From Epsilonproteobacteria bacterium tcs-49 (GTDB lineage: Bacteria > Campylobacterota > Campylobacteria > Campylobacterales > Sulfurovaceae), in contig LLYS01000001.1 in the NCBI GenBank assembly GCA_002049495.1, positions 124,001 to 188,000 on the forward strand: DNA of 64,000 bases, in the 5' to 3' direction. Position 1 is the first letter of the stretch; each line of letters begins with the position of its first letter. The position numbers and the translations under genes are program-made. The notes below the pieces were generated by a model that was given only the letters and a program-made list of their open reading frames with translations, was not told where the DNA came from and did not search any database. Below are positions 8,065 to 15,990 of the stretch, one piece after another.

Positions 8065-8217
8065 GACAGATCCTTTCAGACTTATTTGATCCTATAACTA
8101 TTTAGGTTAATTTCTCCTGAAAGTGTCCGGGTTTGCGTGAAATCGTGGGAAAAGCGGAAGAAAGGATCGGCTATGAGCTTATACACGTCATTTACTATAT
8201 AACGGCGCAGCGTCCGG

Positions 8218-8270
8218 ATAACGTTTGAGTTCATCGACAGCTTTGCTGTTCGGTGCTAGGATTTGTTAGC
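8218..8270 (-). repeat. attC site of cassette 5 (distal)
   Basis: Minus strand GCTAACAAATCCTAGCACCGAACAGCAAAGCTGTCGATGAACTCAAACGTTAT; imperfect palindrome; R'' overlaps the stop codon of the methyltransferase. Confidence 0.85.
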
Positions 8271-9456
8271 TATTTATACTATTTAAAACTTCTTTTAATC
8301 CATATGTAGTTGAATTAATAATTTCTATTTCACCACCTATTGAATCAAGTTCAAATAATGATTTCATATCATTTGTTCTAATTAAAAATGATTTTTTTGA
8401 ATGTTTTGTTTTTACTGCTTTAGCTAATTGCTTGATTGCCTCTTCAATCGTTTCATGTTCTTTTTGGATACGGATTAATATAGGAGTGTTTTGATAAGTC
8501 TCCTTAAGTATAGCATCTATTCCGCTATTTCTTTGAACTGGAACATAATCAATATCATGTAAAAATTTTTCTACTAAAATATCAACATTTCTATATGCAT
8601 CTTTGCCTTTTTTCAATAAATTGGATTCACTCTTTATGGGGTTATCCAATCTTGATTTAGTAAGTTGTATAGCATCCTCTGAAATATCCATACCTATAAC
8701 ATTTCGTTTTTTTAATTTCCCTGCAACTAAAGTTGTACCACTGCCACAAAATGGGTCAAGAATTGTATCTTCTTCATCCGATGCTATTTCAATAATTCTC
8801 TCTAATAGTAATATTGGTTTTTGTGTTGGATACCCAACTCTTTCTTTTGCTTTTGGATTTAAATAAGGTATTTCCCATACATCATTTAAGGGAACACCTT
8901 TTTTGGAATCACTATTTATTGTATTTCCATTTTCATCTTTAGCATATACTGTTTTCCCGCTATTATCTCTAACTCTTTTTTGTAAAATCTGATCAATATT
9001 TGTAGTTTCAGAATAATTATTATAAATTGTTTTGAACTTAAAATCTTTAGTCTTTGAGTAGAAATATATTGTTTGATGAGATGGTAGTAAACCTTTTCTT
9101 GAATTTGACCATCTTTTATAATACCAAATTATTTCAGACTGGAATTGATTTATGCCAAAAATATTATCTAAAAGAGTTTTAACTATATGAGTTGAATTTT
9201 TGTCACAATGAACAAAAATACTTCCTGTTTCTTTGAGCACTCTTCTTAATTGGATTAGTCTATAATATAAAAACTCTGCGTATTCCTCATTGCTTTTCCA
9301 AATATCTTTATATGAAAATTCTTTACTTCCATCTCTTGTTTTTAGTTTTTGTATTGTATTAGTAAAAAATGGTGGATCTAAATAAATCAAATCTACGCTA
9401 TTGTCTTTAAAATCTTTTAGCAGATTTAAACAATCACCTTGCAAAATTCTTTCCAT
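8266..9456 (-). CDS. Site-specific DNA methyltransferase (beta-class, N6-adenine or N4-cytosine)
   Basis: 396 aa; DLIYLDPPFFT (motif IV) precedes DPFCGSGTTLVA (motif I); GYPTQKP motif. Confidence 0.9.
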   Translation of the reverse strand: MERILQGDCLNLLKDFKDNSVDLIYLDPPFFTNTIQKLKTRDGSKEFSYKDIWKSNEEYAEFLYYRLIQLRRVLKETGSIFVHCDKNSTHIVKTLLDNIFGINQFQSEIIWYYKRWSNSRKGLLPSHQTIYFYSKTKDFKFKTIYNNYSETTNIDQILQKRVRDNSGKTVYAKDENGNTINSDSKKGVPLNDVWEIPYLNPKAKERVGYPTQKPILLLERIIEIASDEEDTILDPFCGSGTTLVAGKLKKRNVIGMDISEDAIQLTKSRLDNPIKSESNLLKKGKDAYRNVDILVEKFLHDIDYVPVQRNSGIDAILKETYQNTPILIRIQKEHETIEEAIKQLAKAVKTKHSKKSFLIRTNDMKSLFELDSIGGEIEIINSTTYGLKEVLNSINS

Positions 9457-9461
9457 ATTTA

Positions 9462-10373
9462 TTATGCTCCAGAATTTTCTTTTGCGATTTTTTCTAAAAT
9501 GTTTTTTAAGTCTATATTTGTTCTATTTTTAACATATTCCCAAGCACTATCCCCATAATAGTATTCTCCTCCTATTCCATTGTAAAGAGTTTCAAGTGTA
9601 TTTTGGATTTTTATTGCTTGTTCACGATTTGGATAATAAAACATTACTCTAATTGGATTATATCCAGCGTCATGAATGACTCTGATTCTCGTATGTTCTT
9701 TTGTTATGTGGTCACCGTCAGTTGTAGCATCTCTCCATTTTATTTCTATTGCATTATTACCTTCTAAGCAATCAATTTCAAAAGTTTTTGGTCGTGTACC
9801 TAAAGTATTTGGTATTTTTGTTGTTGCTGAATCAGGAAATTTATGTAAAAAACATAGTTTTGTAGCTTCTTCTAAAAAAGAACCTGCATATTTATATAAA
9901 AAACGTCCTTTATTTTGGTACAAATCTATCAAATGTCCTTCTTCATCTGTCACACCTAAAACTTGATAAACTAAATAGTGTGATTTATCATCACTTTCCA
10001 TCTCTTCCATTCTATCATCAATTTTTCTTTTTAAATTATCTGCATATATTTTTGCTAAATCTTTTATTTCTTGTTCTATATTCATTAAAATTTTTTCCTC
10101 TAATTTTTCTATTTCTTCTTCAAGAATACTAAGTCCTGACGGATAAGAAGTAATAAGCCCTTCATAAAGTATATCTTCAAAAATATGTGATATATCATTT
10201 TCTTCATTTGGGTTATAGTTTATCCTATTTTCATTGATGAAGTTATTTTCTTCTTTTAATAATTCATCATACTCTTCTATTGAAAGTTTATCTAAATATT
10301 CATTTAACTCTTCATATTGTTTTTCTTTACGCTGCAATAGGTTTTGCAATTCAATTAAATAGTCATTGTCCAA
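9462..10373 (-). CDS. ApaLI-like type II restriction endonuclease
   Basis: 303 aa; FEIDCLEGNNAIEIKWRDATTDGDHITKEHTR resembles the ApaLI-like family; PD-(D/E)XK-like D...EIK; 5 bp upstream of the MTase. Confidence 0.75.
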   Translation of the reverse strand: MDNDYLIELQNLLQRKEKQYEELNEYLDKLSIEEYDELLKEENNFINENRINYNPNEENDISHIFEDILYEGLITSYPSGLSILEEEIEKLEEKILMNIEQEIKDLAKIYADNLKRKIDDRMEEMESDDKSHYLVYQVLGVTDEEGHLIDLYQNKGRFLYKYAGSFLEEATKLCFLHKFPDSATTKIPNTLGTRPKTFEIDCLEGNNAIEIKWRDATTDGDHITKEHTRIRVIHDAGYNPIRVMFYYPNREQAIKIQNTLETLYNGIGGEYYYGDSAWEYVKNRTNIDLKNILEKIAKENSGA

Positions 10374-10388
10374 AAATAATCCTTATAT

Positions 10389-10446
10389 AGCTAACGTTTG
10401 ACTTCACCGACAGGGTGTCCTGTTCGGTGCTAGGATTTGTTGTACT
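10389..10446 (-). repeat. attC site of cassette 4
   Basis: Minus strand ACAACAAATCCTAGCACCGAACAGGACACCCTGTCGGTGAAGTCAAACGTTAGCT; nearly the same as the site at 8218-8270. Confidence 0.85.
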
Positions 10447-10467
10447 TTTTTCAGCAAAAATTTGGTT

Positions 10468-11985
10468 TTATAGTTTCAATATTTTACCACTTTTTATATG
10501 TTGTTTAAATTCTTCTGCATTGTTGAATTTTAATTCAACATTGAAGGTATTAGCAATCATTGCTAAACCACTATTTATATTTTCACCATTTTGAATAGCT
10601 AAACTTATTGTTTTAAATCCATCTTTAATTTCTAATTCTTTTTTATTAAAATAGTTATCATAAATTGACATAGCATATTCACGATATTCTTTTTCTTGAA
10701 TAATTAAATCTTCACAATATGCTTTTATTGCTTCTCTTTGTTTATTTGATATCTCTGTATCATGAATAGATTTTTGCAACTCTGAATATACAGCACTACT
10801 CATAATTGATGCTGTCATACCACCAATAACACCACCAACAATTGTTCCCACACCTGGCATTATTGCCGTTCCTACAACTGCTCCTAAATTCGCACCTGTT
10901 AATGATGTTGCTAAAGTTGTTCCCTCTTGACCAATATTTTTAGCAAATTCATTTGCATCAATTTTTCCAGTTAATAAATTTTTTGTTTGTTTTGCTAATA
11001 TCACTCCTGATTGAAGTATTACAGTAGGAGTATTGCCTTTTGCTAGATTTTTGGCAACTTGATTACTAGATGATTTTAAAATTCCACCAATAGCAGAGCT
11101 TGTGGCACCACTTGCATAAGCAAGTGCAGTTGCTTTACTTGTATCAACTGCCATATCTTGTAATGCCTCTTTGCCTATTTTATCTCCTTTATAAAAAGCA
11201 TAAAGGTTTTTAGCTGAATTTATTCCACCACTTATAGCTCCACCAATTTTTGCAGATTCTATACCTGCTTTATGAGATATTTTACCTATATCTTTTGCTA
11301 TACTTATATTATGGTTTTTTCTAGCTTCCATAGCTTCTTCTGTACTGACTTTTGCATCTCTGAGTCTACTTTTTGCATCTTTTATATCATCAATCTTTTT
11401 CTGTAGATCATTTACTTTATTGCTATCACCATTGTCAATTCTATTTTGCTTTTGTTTTTCAAGTTTTGAGATTTGATTATCCCAGTCTGCTTTAATATCA
11501 CTTATTTGGTCACTTGGTACATCTAAAATAGCATCTTTATAATGATTAAATTCTTTTCCATATAGTTTTCTATAGCTTTCAAGATTTTTAAAAACTTTTT
11601 GCTGTGAGCCTCCTATATAATTACCTGCTGTATCTAAAATTGGATTTCCATTCTTGTCAACTTCTACATGATCAAATTGAGGATGATTAACACTTCCTAC
11701 ATCATCAGTTCTACTTATTCTTGTATTCTTTTCATCTAAAATATTTTGTGCATTAGTTCTTGCTGTTGTCTTTATTTCAGCAGAAAATCCTGATTGTTGA
11801 TGATAATTATTATCCACGTATTCTGGATTAATATTACTATTTGCTATTTTACTTAAATCTGTATGTGTTTTAAAGTGTTCTGCATTTGCAAACCCAAACC
11901 GTTCCAATTCAGCACTAATAGCTATATTTACTTCATTGTTAAAGTCTTTTTCTTTTTTTCTTTTTTTTAAGCCAAATAAATCCAT
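10468..11985 (-). CDS. Unknown protein with C-terminal glycine-zipper region (cassette 4, gene 3)
   Basis: 505 aa; basic N-terminus, coiled-coil centre (KLEKQKQNRIDNGDSNKVNDLQKKIDDIKDAKSRL), GAVVGTAIMPGVGTIVGGVIGGMTASI glycine zipper. Confidence 0.75.
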   Translation of the reverse strand: MDLFGLKKRKKEKDFNNEVNIAISAELERFGFANAEHFKTHTDLSKIANSNINPEYVDNNYHQQSGFSAEIKTTARTNAQNILDEKNTRISRTDDVGSVNHPQFDHVEVDKNGNPILDTAGNYIGGSQQKVFKNLESYRKLYGKEFNHYKDAILDVPSDQISDIKADWDNQISKLEKQKQNRIDNGDSNKVNDLQKKIDDIKDAKSRLRDAKVSTEEAMEARKNHNISIAKDIGKISHKAGIESAKIGGAISGGINSAKNLYAFYKGDKIGKEALQDMAVDTSKATALAYASGATSSAIGGILKSSSNQVAKNLAKGNTPTVILQSGVILAKQTKNLLTGKIDANEFAKNIGQEGTTLATSLTGANLGAVVGTAIMPGVGTIVGGVIGGMTASIMSSAVYSELQKSIHDTEISNKQREAIKAYCEDLIIQEKEYREYAMSIYDNYFNKKELEIKDGFKTISLAIQNGENINSGLAMIANTFNVELKFNNAEEFKQHIKSGKILKL

Positions 11986-11989
11986 ACAG

Positions 11990-13027
11990 TTATTCCTGAT
12001 AATTTAATTGAAATTGCAATTCTGAAATCATTGTTTGATTACCTTCTAAAACTTCCAAACTATTACTAATAAAAGCACCTTCTTCATTCATAAGTGGCAT
12101 TTTTATTATTTCATTTAATATTGATGCAATATTTGCAGAAGTGGCAAATACTTCAGCTTCTCTAGTTGATAATATATCAATATTAAATATTTTATTTTTT
12201 ATTGGGTCAATAAATTTTGCAATTGCGGATCTTTGTTCTAGTCTATAGGCAATTTTAGCCATTTCAGTATTATAAACCTTGAGTAAAGCATCTAATCCTT
12301 TAATACTTTCACTCATTAAATAGCATCCTCTTCTTATTTGAGATAATTCAGCTATTAAGGTAGTGACCTTTTCTACTAATACATCAATTTCATCGGAATA
12401 ATTATTTGCTTCATTTAATGCTTGTTTACCTTTATTTGTTCCAAGAAACATTCCAAATACTAAAACGGGTGCTAATGCTATTCCTCCAAGAACTACCATT
12501 CCTCCTGTCATACCTGCACCACCAGCACTTACTGCACCTCCACCAAGCCATGCTAAAGTTGCATTTGTTGCAGCAGCTCCTGATAGCGTTCCTATTGCAG
12601 TACCTGTTGAGGCTGTTCCAATAATTGCAGCCGTTCCCATAGCACCAAATGCCGCTGTTGTACCTATTAATGCACCACCTGCGACGGCTGTAGAAATTTC
12701 TTTTATATTGGTTGTTATAATCTGCATGTCTTTAAAATCTGTTTTAAAGTTACTATAATCTAGTGTTTCATCTTGCTTTAAAGGTTTTAAATCAACTTTA
12801 CCTATTACCTCATATGCCTTTACAAAATCATTGATACTTTGTGAGTATACTTCTTCTTTTAATACACCCAAACTCTGAATATCATCTTGGGTTTTTTCTT
12901 TTGTCTCTTCTAATTCTTCTTTTATATCATTTTTTCTTTTATTCGTATTTTTTGTAATTCGTTTTGCATCACTTCTATCAATTGCTCCAAATGTTATAAA
13001 ATTAGTTGTTTTTCTAAGAAGTCTCAT
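11990..13027 (-). CDS. Unknown glycine-rich membrane-associating protein (cassette 4, gene 2)
   Basis: 345 aa; N-terminal charged helix, long Gly/Ala hydrophobic stretch (AVAGGALIGTTAAFGAMGTAAIIGTASTGTAIGTLSGAAATNATLAWLGGGAVSAGGAGMTGGMVVLGGIALAPVLVFGMFLG), helical C-terminus. Confidence 0.75.
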   Translation of the reverse strand: MRLLRKTTNFITFGAIDRSDAKRITKNTNKRKNDIKEELEETKEKTQDDIQSLGVLKEEVYSQSINDFVKAYEVIGKVDLKPLKQDETLDYSNFKTDFKDMQIITTNIKEISTAVAGGALIGTTAAFGAMGTAAIIGTASTGTAIGTLSGAAATNATLAWLGGGAVSAGGAGMTGGMVVLGGIALAPVLVFGMFLGTNKGKQALNEANNYSDEIDVLVEKVTTLIAELSQIRRGCYLMSESIKGLDALLKVYNTEMAKIAYRLEQRSAIAKFIDPIKNKIFNIDILSTREAEVFATSANIASILNEIIKMPLMNEEGAFISNSLEVLEGNQTMISELQFQLNYQE

Positions 13028-13029
13028 AA

Positions 13030-13425
13030 TTAGCTCTCAATATATTCTATAAATTCATTTTGTATTTTCTTATATTGCTCTAATAAATTTTCTATTTTTC
13101 TAAGTTCATTTATATGTACATTAATTAAATTGCAAATATTATCTGTATATTTATCTTGTTCTACATGGTAATCTTTATTTGAATGCCCTAGTGCAACTAA
13201 TTCTAATAATAATATTTTTTTTGATTCTATCTCATCAAAATAATCTTTGATTTCGGATTTTTCGATTACTAGTTCGTCATTAAAACTCAATGACATTTCA
13301 GAACACAAATTTCTAAGATATTCTTCTTCATGATTATCCATAAGCCCGTCATCTATAGTTAGTATCTCTTTTGCTAATCCTAAGAAAATTTTTCTCTGTT
13401 TATATGATAATGATGCTAAAAACAT
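13030..13425 (-). CDS. TerB-like small protein (cassette 4, gene 1)
   Basis: 131 aa; MFLASLSYKQRKIFLGLAKEILTIDDGLMDNHEEEYLRNLCSEM resembles the TerB-type helical core with acidic DDGLMDNHEEE. Confidence 0.6.
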   Translation of the reverse strand: MFLASLSYKQRKIFLGLAKEILTIDDGLMDNHEEEYLRNLCSEMSLSFNDELVIEKSEIKDYFDEIESKKILLLELVALGHSNKDYHVEQDKYTDNICNLINVHINELRKIENLLEQYKKIQNEFIEYIES

Positions 13426-13448
13426 TTTTAATTCCTTTAATTTTTATT

Positions 13449-13518
13449 TGATAACGGTTGAGTTGAGAAATATTTGAGCCAGCAGGGTCAAATATTTCTC
13501 TCCAAGGTTTTGTTATAC
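13449..13518 (-). repeat. attC site of cassette 3
   Basis: ataacggttgagtt GAGAAATATTTGA gccagcaggg TCAAATATTTCTC tccaaggttttgttata; perfect 13-bp inner arms. Confidence 0.8.
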
Positions 13519-14579: not shown

Positions 14580-14739
14580 ATCTAACGGCGCCGCGGGTAA
14601 GCGACAGCCGGATAAAAAATTTTAATTTTTTGTTTGGGTGCTCGCTTCTCCCGCTTGTTATCTGGTGCGAAGCAACAGATGACTAGCGGGTGTTCAGCCC
14701 GCGGCGCCGTTATCTCGGACGCGCAGCGTCCGAGATAAC
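14580..14739 (-). repeat. Integrase-proximal gene-less cassette / compound attC with nested palindromes
   Basis: 14583-14597 taacggcgccgcggg is an exact inverted repeat of 14698-14712 cccgcggcgccgtta; 14709-14722 gttatctcggacgc is an exact inverted repeat of 14726-14739 gcgtccgagataac (loop gca). R' reads GTTAGAT on minus. Confidence 0.7.
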
Positions 14740-14985
14740 TATTTATTAAACATATATTGTATACAAAACAACCTTAATTATTAAAAATAACACACATAAA
14801 GAATGTCATATAATATATTAAGAAAAAGCACCTTAACACGGCACTTAATGAGATGTTATTAAAAGAATTGTTTAAAATCAACTACTATATATTAAATATT
14901 AATTTTTAGATATAATTTTAATATACATTTAATATATATATTTAGACAAAATTCATACATTTTATATGTATATTGTCACTATATC
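14740..14985. promoter_or_regulatory. Probable attI / divergent promoter region of the integron
   Basis: Position between intI and the first cassette; extremely AT-rich; attI core not defined by sequence alone. Confidence 0.45.
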
Positions 14986-15990
14986 GTGATAAACCTGCAA
15001 AATGCTAAATATATTGGGAGGTGCAATGTGGGTAAAAAACTATTGGATATTATGACGGATAAGATTAGATTTAAACACTATAGCATAAGTACTGAGAGGA
15101 CTTATGTGCATTGGGCTAAGCGATATATACTTTTTCATAACAAACGGCACCCCAAAGATATGGGAAAGATGGAGATTGAGCAATTTCTCACCTTCCTTGC
15201 TACAAAGTTACATGTAAGTCCCGCCACACAGAACCAAGCTTTCAATGCAATTTTATTTTTATATGAACAGGTTTTGGATATTTCGTTAAAAGATCAAAAC
15301 ATCCAAGCTCTAAGAGCTCAAGAGAGAAAACATATACCCGTTGTGCTTACGATAGATGAAGTGAAAAATGTCATATCAAACATGAAAGGTATCTATCAGC
15401 TCATGGTCAAACTCATGTACGGATGTGGCTTAAGGATGAACGAAGTTCAAAATATCAGGGTAAAAGATATCGATTTTGGCTATGAGAAAATTTATATCTG
15501 GAACAGTAAATCTCTCAAAGACAGAACGTTACCGATGCCTAAAAAGATCAAACAAGAACTTATAATCCAAGTCGAAAGAGTAAGAGAACTTCATGCAAAA
15601 GATTTGCATGACGGCTTTGGCGGTGTATACATCCCTTATGCACTGGAGCGAAAATTTCCCAATGCTAAATATGAAACAAAATGGCAGTATGTTTTTCCAA
15701 TGGAGAAAATATCAACCGATCCAAGAAGCGGTGAGCGAAGAAGACACCACATACTCGATGTGACATTAAGCAGAAATATTAAAAAAGCAGTTACAAAGTC
15801 CAGTATTGACAAAAAAGTAACTGCTCATACATTCAGACACTCCTATGCTACACATCTTTTACAAAACGGTACAGATATACGATCAATTCAAGAACTTTTA
15901 GGTCATAAATCCATAGAAACCACTATGATATATACTCATGTTGTAAAGGAGTTACATAAAAACGAGATCAAAAGTCCACTTGACTTTTAA
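14986..15990 (+). CDS. intI: Integron integrase (IntI-type tyrosine recombinase)
   Basis: Tyrosine-recombinase motifs ([51 protein letters not shown]) plus the IntI-specific insertion ([35 protein letters not shown]). In-frame GTG at 15028 preceded by GGGAGG is a likelier start than 14986. Confidence 0.95.

Follow-up and report, generated by a model that had tools for sequence, protein, structure and literature searches.

A three-gene integron cassette encoding a TerB-like protein and two predicted membrane-type proteins: a candidate anti-phage defence module

Introduction

The locus raises two questions: what function might be served by a gene cassette encoding a TerB-like protein (A), a helical protein with a glycine/alanine-rich core (B) and a larger protein with a glycine-rich hydrophobic segment (C), and whether such a unit had already been described. 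The cassette was investigated within a stretch of 64,000 nucleotides (the window), which is part of the 2.22-Mb genome of a member of the Campylobacterota. A membrane-type anti-phage defence module, understood in a general sense, is the reading we consider reasonably probable (roughly 0.6), while each detail of it is less certain.

Results

Integron setting of the cassette

The G+C content of the chromosome is about 52% and drops to about 30% across approximately 8.2-16 kb of the window, where an integron was located with the following features.

8213-10373, minus strand: restriction-modification cassette directly after A-B-C, with its own attC at 8213-8270
8266-9456, minus strand: DNA methyltransferase (PF01555, 8.8e-54)
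9462-10373, minus strand: ApaLI-like restriction endonuclease (PF09499, 5.6e-99)
10389-10446, minus strand: attC of the A-B-C cassette (hairpin z -3.3; aligns with the other attC sites)
10468-11985, minus strand: gene C, 505 aa (AF2, residue conservation, domain coverage, PDC-M09B matches of relatives)
11990-13027, minus strand: gene B, 345-aa helical protein with a Gly/Ala-rich hydrophobic core at about residues 111-198 (PADLOC, AF2)
13030-13425, minus strand: gene A, 131-aa TerB-like protein (ORF, PF05099 in homologues, PDB 2ou3, dN/dS)
13447-13517, minus strand: attC belonging to the YCII cassette that comes before A-B-C, which it delimits upstream (hairpin z -4.6; attC alignment)
14986-15990, plus strand: integron integrase intI (TIGR02249, 2.3e-123)

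The first-pass annotation had placed three ORFs, 2 and 4 bp apart, in a single cassette, and its coordinates proved exact. All three genes are encoded on the minus strand, an attC site is present on both sides and intI lies nearby, which identifies A-B-C as one attC-bounded integron gene cassette. Counted from intI, the minus-strand cassettes encode a 219-aa protein, a YCII-domain protein, A-B-C, and the ApaLI-like restriction endonuclease together with its methyltransferase. Both bordering attC sites folded as hairpins better than 200 of 200 shuffled sequences. The attC sites of this array could be aligned with those of a second array, with the AAC...GTT ends being invariant; scanning for attC in general, with R-box pairing strictly enforced, lacked specificity and failed to pick up the sites of the window. 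The gap between the upstream attC and gene A is only about 25 bp long, which makes it probable that the cassette needs read-through transcription. ORF-free, G+C-rich nested inverted repeats were also observed between intI and the first cassette (14580-14760), which might represent attI or an ORF-less cassette, and a short motif resembling these repeats appeared just past the last attC, at about 8200-8222.

In a genome of another family of the same order (G254), A-B-C was likewise found between attC sites, and the neighbouring cassettes there were different. Protein identity between the two copies was 82% for A, 82% for B and 89% for C, and dN/dS values of 0.107, 0.159 and 0.106, respectively, revealed purifying selection. 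These low ratios, together with the second cassette copy, indicate that A, B and C are each selected as proteins and travel as one cassette. A chance row of ORFs had also been considered and was dropped on the basis of dN/dS and conservation. In the B tree, the clade comprising the window and G254 (100/98) includes Spirochaetota, Fibrobacterota and Pseudomonadota, which points to transfer between phyla.

Genes A and B

The A protein of the window alone matched no Pfam model above threshold and no PADLOC model at an E value below 0.01. Homologues of A, in turn, matched the TerB model PF05099 (4.3e-10 in locus L071 and 2e-5 in L079), and the family profile of A (A4) found the solved TerB-like structure PDB 2ou3 at 1.3e-7. 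Through its homologues and the profile match, the earlier designation of the 131-aa protein as TerB-like holds at family level, and it is at this level that the sequence comparisons assign A to the TerB family.

The B protein matched the PADLOC family PDC-M09A (PDLC04407, 4.6e-26, across residues 24-255), and nothing was found above cut-off in Pfam or NCBIfam. In the AF2 model, two long helices (residues 2-76 and 200-264) flank a hydrophobic Gly/Ala core modelled with low confidence; the Gly/Ala stretch that had been noted in this protein is real. Its signature, TGTAIxxLSGxAATNATLAWLGGG...GGxGMxGG, was almost invariant in 72 sequences. The B profile found no match among solved structures, and Foldseek retrieved nothing significant from the PDB, the best non-ciliary match being a weak one to the ClyA pore (6mrt; E 0.28, probability 0.60, TM 0.3). 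B was present in 43 of 298 Campylobacterota genomes, representing 16 of 59 genera, and at 557 confirmed loci among GTDB species genomes. As a single query against plasmid and phage collections, the window B gave no match; the Enterobacter B matched nine plasmids and no phages, and the DNA of the Enterobacter operon had no match in E. coli. B was not found in viral contigs either, and the idea that these are phage cargo genes was dropped on account of their absence from phage and viral collections.

Gene C and its putative nuclease head

Three regions could be distinguished in the C protein.

Residues 54-156: alpha-beta-beta-beta-alpha-beta domain with E70, D105 and Q128-x-K130
Residues about 358-400: hydrophobic Gly-rich segment
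Residues about 400-505: C-terminal helical tail, constant across relatives

Pfam yielded nothing above cut-off for C, only weak matches to glycine zippers. In the AF2 model, the block averages of pLDDT for residues 31-240 were at or above about 80, and the order of elements was a helix (54-83), three strands (89-92, 106-109 and 126-129), a helix (135-141) and a further strand (153-156). The 505-aa protein had been described as a coiled coil with a glycine-zipper tail; the hydrophobic Gly-rich stretch is indeed real, but the coiled-coil description overlooked the well-predicted alpha/beta N-terminal domain with its E..D..QxK residues. Among 36 sequences, E70 was conserved in 34, D105 in 33, Q128 in 32 and K130 in 34. 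An alpha-beta-beta-beta-alpha-beta arrangement with E, D and (E/D/Q)xK is the core layout of PD-(D/E)XK nucleases, and going by the predicted fold it appears moderately likely that the head of C is a nuclease-like domain of the QxK type. Foldseek comparison of C with the PDB and with viral models gave nothing significant, the C profile had no match among solved structures, and alignment of the head with Mrr_cat by hhalign gave a probability of 0.1. As Foldseek and hhalign lent it no support, the nuclease-like head is one that we infer.

Coverage by the C profile located the constant part in the last ~100 residues, whereas the heads of the relatives differed. The window type made up the majority; other C proteins carried an M48 peptidase (L078 and L089), an LRAT domain (L080 and L081, 1e-16 to 4e-19) or a NUDIX domain (L101, 3e-24), some had unassigned heads, and headless relatives consisted of the tail alone (~135 aa). 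Both LRAT-headed loci belong to Oceanospirillaceae, where the acyltransferase-type head is a possible lipid-acting effector. When head labels were placed on the B tree, 10 changes were counted compared with 28.3 for shuffled labels, the count being approximate, as some labels were taken from incomplete loci (e.g. L095 and L130). The heads are thus clustered on the B tree, yet have been exchanged repeatedly while B and the tail of C stayed.

Co-occurrence in relatives

Co-occurrence was determined in 78 loci from at least eight phyla that had been picked by B alone. The 80 loci kept were those most similar to the query, and the frequencies describe that sample, not all bacteria. The same gene run as B contained C in 69 of the 78 loci, a TerB-like gene in 42, a CxxCxxCC gene (PF03692) in 31 and a WYL regulator in 8. 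The commonest gene orders were C-TerB-B (19 loci), B-C (9) and C-TerB-B-CxxCxxCC (8); TerB-B-C, the arrangement of the window, which lacks CxxCxxCC, is a minority type. A search for conserved co-occurrence, which had been suggested as a check, accordingly revealed B and C as a conserved pair in many phyla. WYL regulators headed several gammaproteobacterial operons of relatives.

Some loci showed irregular arrangements. In several related genomes of genus g20 (L058 and L063-L066), C was broken or shortened at one fixed chromosomal site and B was often retained. L060 (4727-9859) showed a single run in which the B family is represented three times and C is split. On a plasmid of Azospirillum ramasamyi (L171, 2162-7981), WYL was followed by a hypothetical protein, a B homologue, another hypothetical protein and a protein annotated as belonging to the PD-(D/E)XK family; a gene for a DUF3320 protein lay upstream of this run.

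Links to phage defence

A JukA gene was identified by PADLOC as the first operon gene in the relatives G078 (1e-60), G255 (4e-32) and G138 (1e-31). It was situated directly upstream of CxxCxxCC-B-C or B-C, with either an overlap or a gap of no more than roughly a dozen bases. The JukA-type genes of the three Campylobacterota genomes have the following locus coordinates.

L033, 4874-5662: JukA-type gene
L034, 7144-7593: JukA-type gene
L053, 5186-5943: JukA-type gene, its frame split in two

Two Helicobacter neighbours (828-aa and 197-aa genes) had been candidates for JukA and were rejected, JukA being the DUF3944-type gene. JukA (PDLC04111) was absent from the window genome. With 118 proteins in each set, 76 PADLOC models were matched by neighbours in the loci and 28 in matched random loci, an enrichment of defence genes that is not clear, the matches coming from few proteins that each hit many models. 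A link to conflict or anti-phage systems had been proposed for the cassette, and it is strengthened by the PDC-M09A/B matches, by JukA heading the operons of three relatives and by WYL in several gammaproteobacterial operons; regulators of the BrxR-type WYL group co-localise with phage defence (PMC9122601). The restriction-modification cassette adjoining A-B-C was also counted in favour of defence.

Discussion

The best reading of the cassette, as judged from sequence comparison, is a TerB-gated pair of membrane effectors with a nuclease-like head on C. The acidic and presumably cytosolic A protein would sense an infection signal or keep the module inactive. B would be made in the cytosol as a helical protein and, once released, its Gly/Ala core may enter the inner membrane or a vesicle made by the phage, possibly forming a pore. 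C would then dock on B, using its constant tail together with the hydrophobic segment, and bring the exchangeable head to the membrane, where the QxK PD-(D/E)XK-like head of the window C might cut nucleic acid; in relatives, an M48 peptidase, an LRAT-type acyltransferase or a NUDIX domain would take its place. If the steps follow in this order, either the infection would be blocked or the cell would die. The cassette is best explained as a compact and mobile form of a defence module that works through membrane effectors and is widespread in bacteria.

Other functions were weighed against this reading. A TerB-like protein acting with zinc/iron-chelating CxxCxxCC and membrane proteins might counter envelope or metal stress, as in ter systems, and not phages. 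The TerB family of A and the PF03692 neighbours in 31 of 78 relatives are in agreement with such a stress or metal-homeostasis module, but the cassette lacks TerC, TerD or TerZ-type genes as well as the CxxCxxCC gene, and exchangeable enzymatic C heads with JukA and WYL partners suit a conflict system better; we regard a stress function as unlikely. It is also improbable that the cassette is a toxin-antitoxin stabiliser, in which B and C would poison the membrane, A would neutralise them, and the unit would be kept by addiction without any function in defence. A toxic-looking three-gene unit with predicted membrane-type proteins in integron cassettes of two arrays would fit this idea, whereas most of the relatives in the sample form operons in diverse surroundings, some of them with WYL, and an integron is known for the window and G254. 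In addition, A is missing from many relatives, which argues that it is not an obligate antitoxin.

Least expected is that B acts outside the cell, in bacterial competition, as an alpha-helical pore former of the ClyA type resembling tripartite alpha-PFTs. The succession of helix, hydrophobic core and helix and the ClyA pores as best non-ciliary structural match speak for this possibility; the match is, however, below significance, no N-terminal secretion signal could be seen by eye, and where B is paired with C (69 of 78 loci) the loci are without recognised secretion genes.

With this cassette, the database label PDC-M09 becomes a concrete, compact and mobile set of three genes amenable to cloning in one piece, and its family emerges as modular across many phyla. 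TerB proteins are tied to a membrane pair that elsewhere follows the phage sensor JukA. The integron cargo of Campylobacterota gains a multi-gene, defence-like unit next to a restriction-modification cassette.

Comparison with known systems

The cassette shares the TerB family of A with the ter tellurite and stress operons but contains no TerC, TerD or TerZ, and B and C are unrelated to the ter partners. For Bunzi (BnzA/BnzB), TerB PF05099 is listed (PMC10952713). A TerB-type domain is thus common to both, and M48-headed and some other relatives of C partly matched BnzB (1e-43, 3e-31), while A, B and C of the window matched neither BnzA nor BnzB. Juk is a jumbo-phage defence that acts on the early vesicle, with JukA as sensor and diverse effectors including the pore-former JukB (PMC13282480). 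The likeness lies in the JukA-led operons of three relatives, a membrane-type partner and varied effectors; A, B and C of the window, in contrast, matched neither JukA nor JukB in PADLOC. Dionysus, as described in reviews, is a TerB-encoding system of P. aeruginosa (PMC12926258) and averts formation of the early jumbo-phage vesicle (PMC13282480), both citing bioRxiv 10.1101/2025.09.30.679545. On these descriptions it resembles the cassette as a TerB-encoding defence at a membrane-bound stage, and Pseudomonas-type relatives of the A-B-C operon exist (L115, L137 and L148).

We tentatively consider, as a possibility somewhat short of even, a single pan-bacterial immune architecture in which a constant membrane pair, B and the C tail, combines with interchangeable sensors (TerB-like, JukA) and C heads (nuclease-like, metallopeptidase, LRAT acyltransferase, NUDIX). 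PDC-M09 and parts of Bunzi, and perhaps also the operons of Juk and Dionysus, would then be pieces of this architecture, which would in addition be spread in one piece as an integron cassette.

The closest counterpart is PDC-M09 of PADLOC. PDCs were predicted in a guilt-by-embedding study, with validation still pending for most of them (PMC12988326), and a literature search found no published test of PDC-M09. Besides the window B, which is PDC-M09A, relatives of C matched PDC-M09B at 1e-15 to 1e-19, and both genes are adjacent. The PDC-M09B models did not match the window C even when E was relaxed to 1, although it aligned end to end with relatives that match them, and the TerB gene was also missed. 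The description of the cassette as an undescribed system is therefore correct only in part: the B-C pair is already contained in PADLOC as a candidate and a preprint presents Dionysus as a defence system with TerB, while the TerB-containing cassette form, with a C missed by PADLOC, modular heads, the link to JukA and a spread over many phyla, is new.
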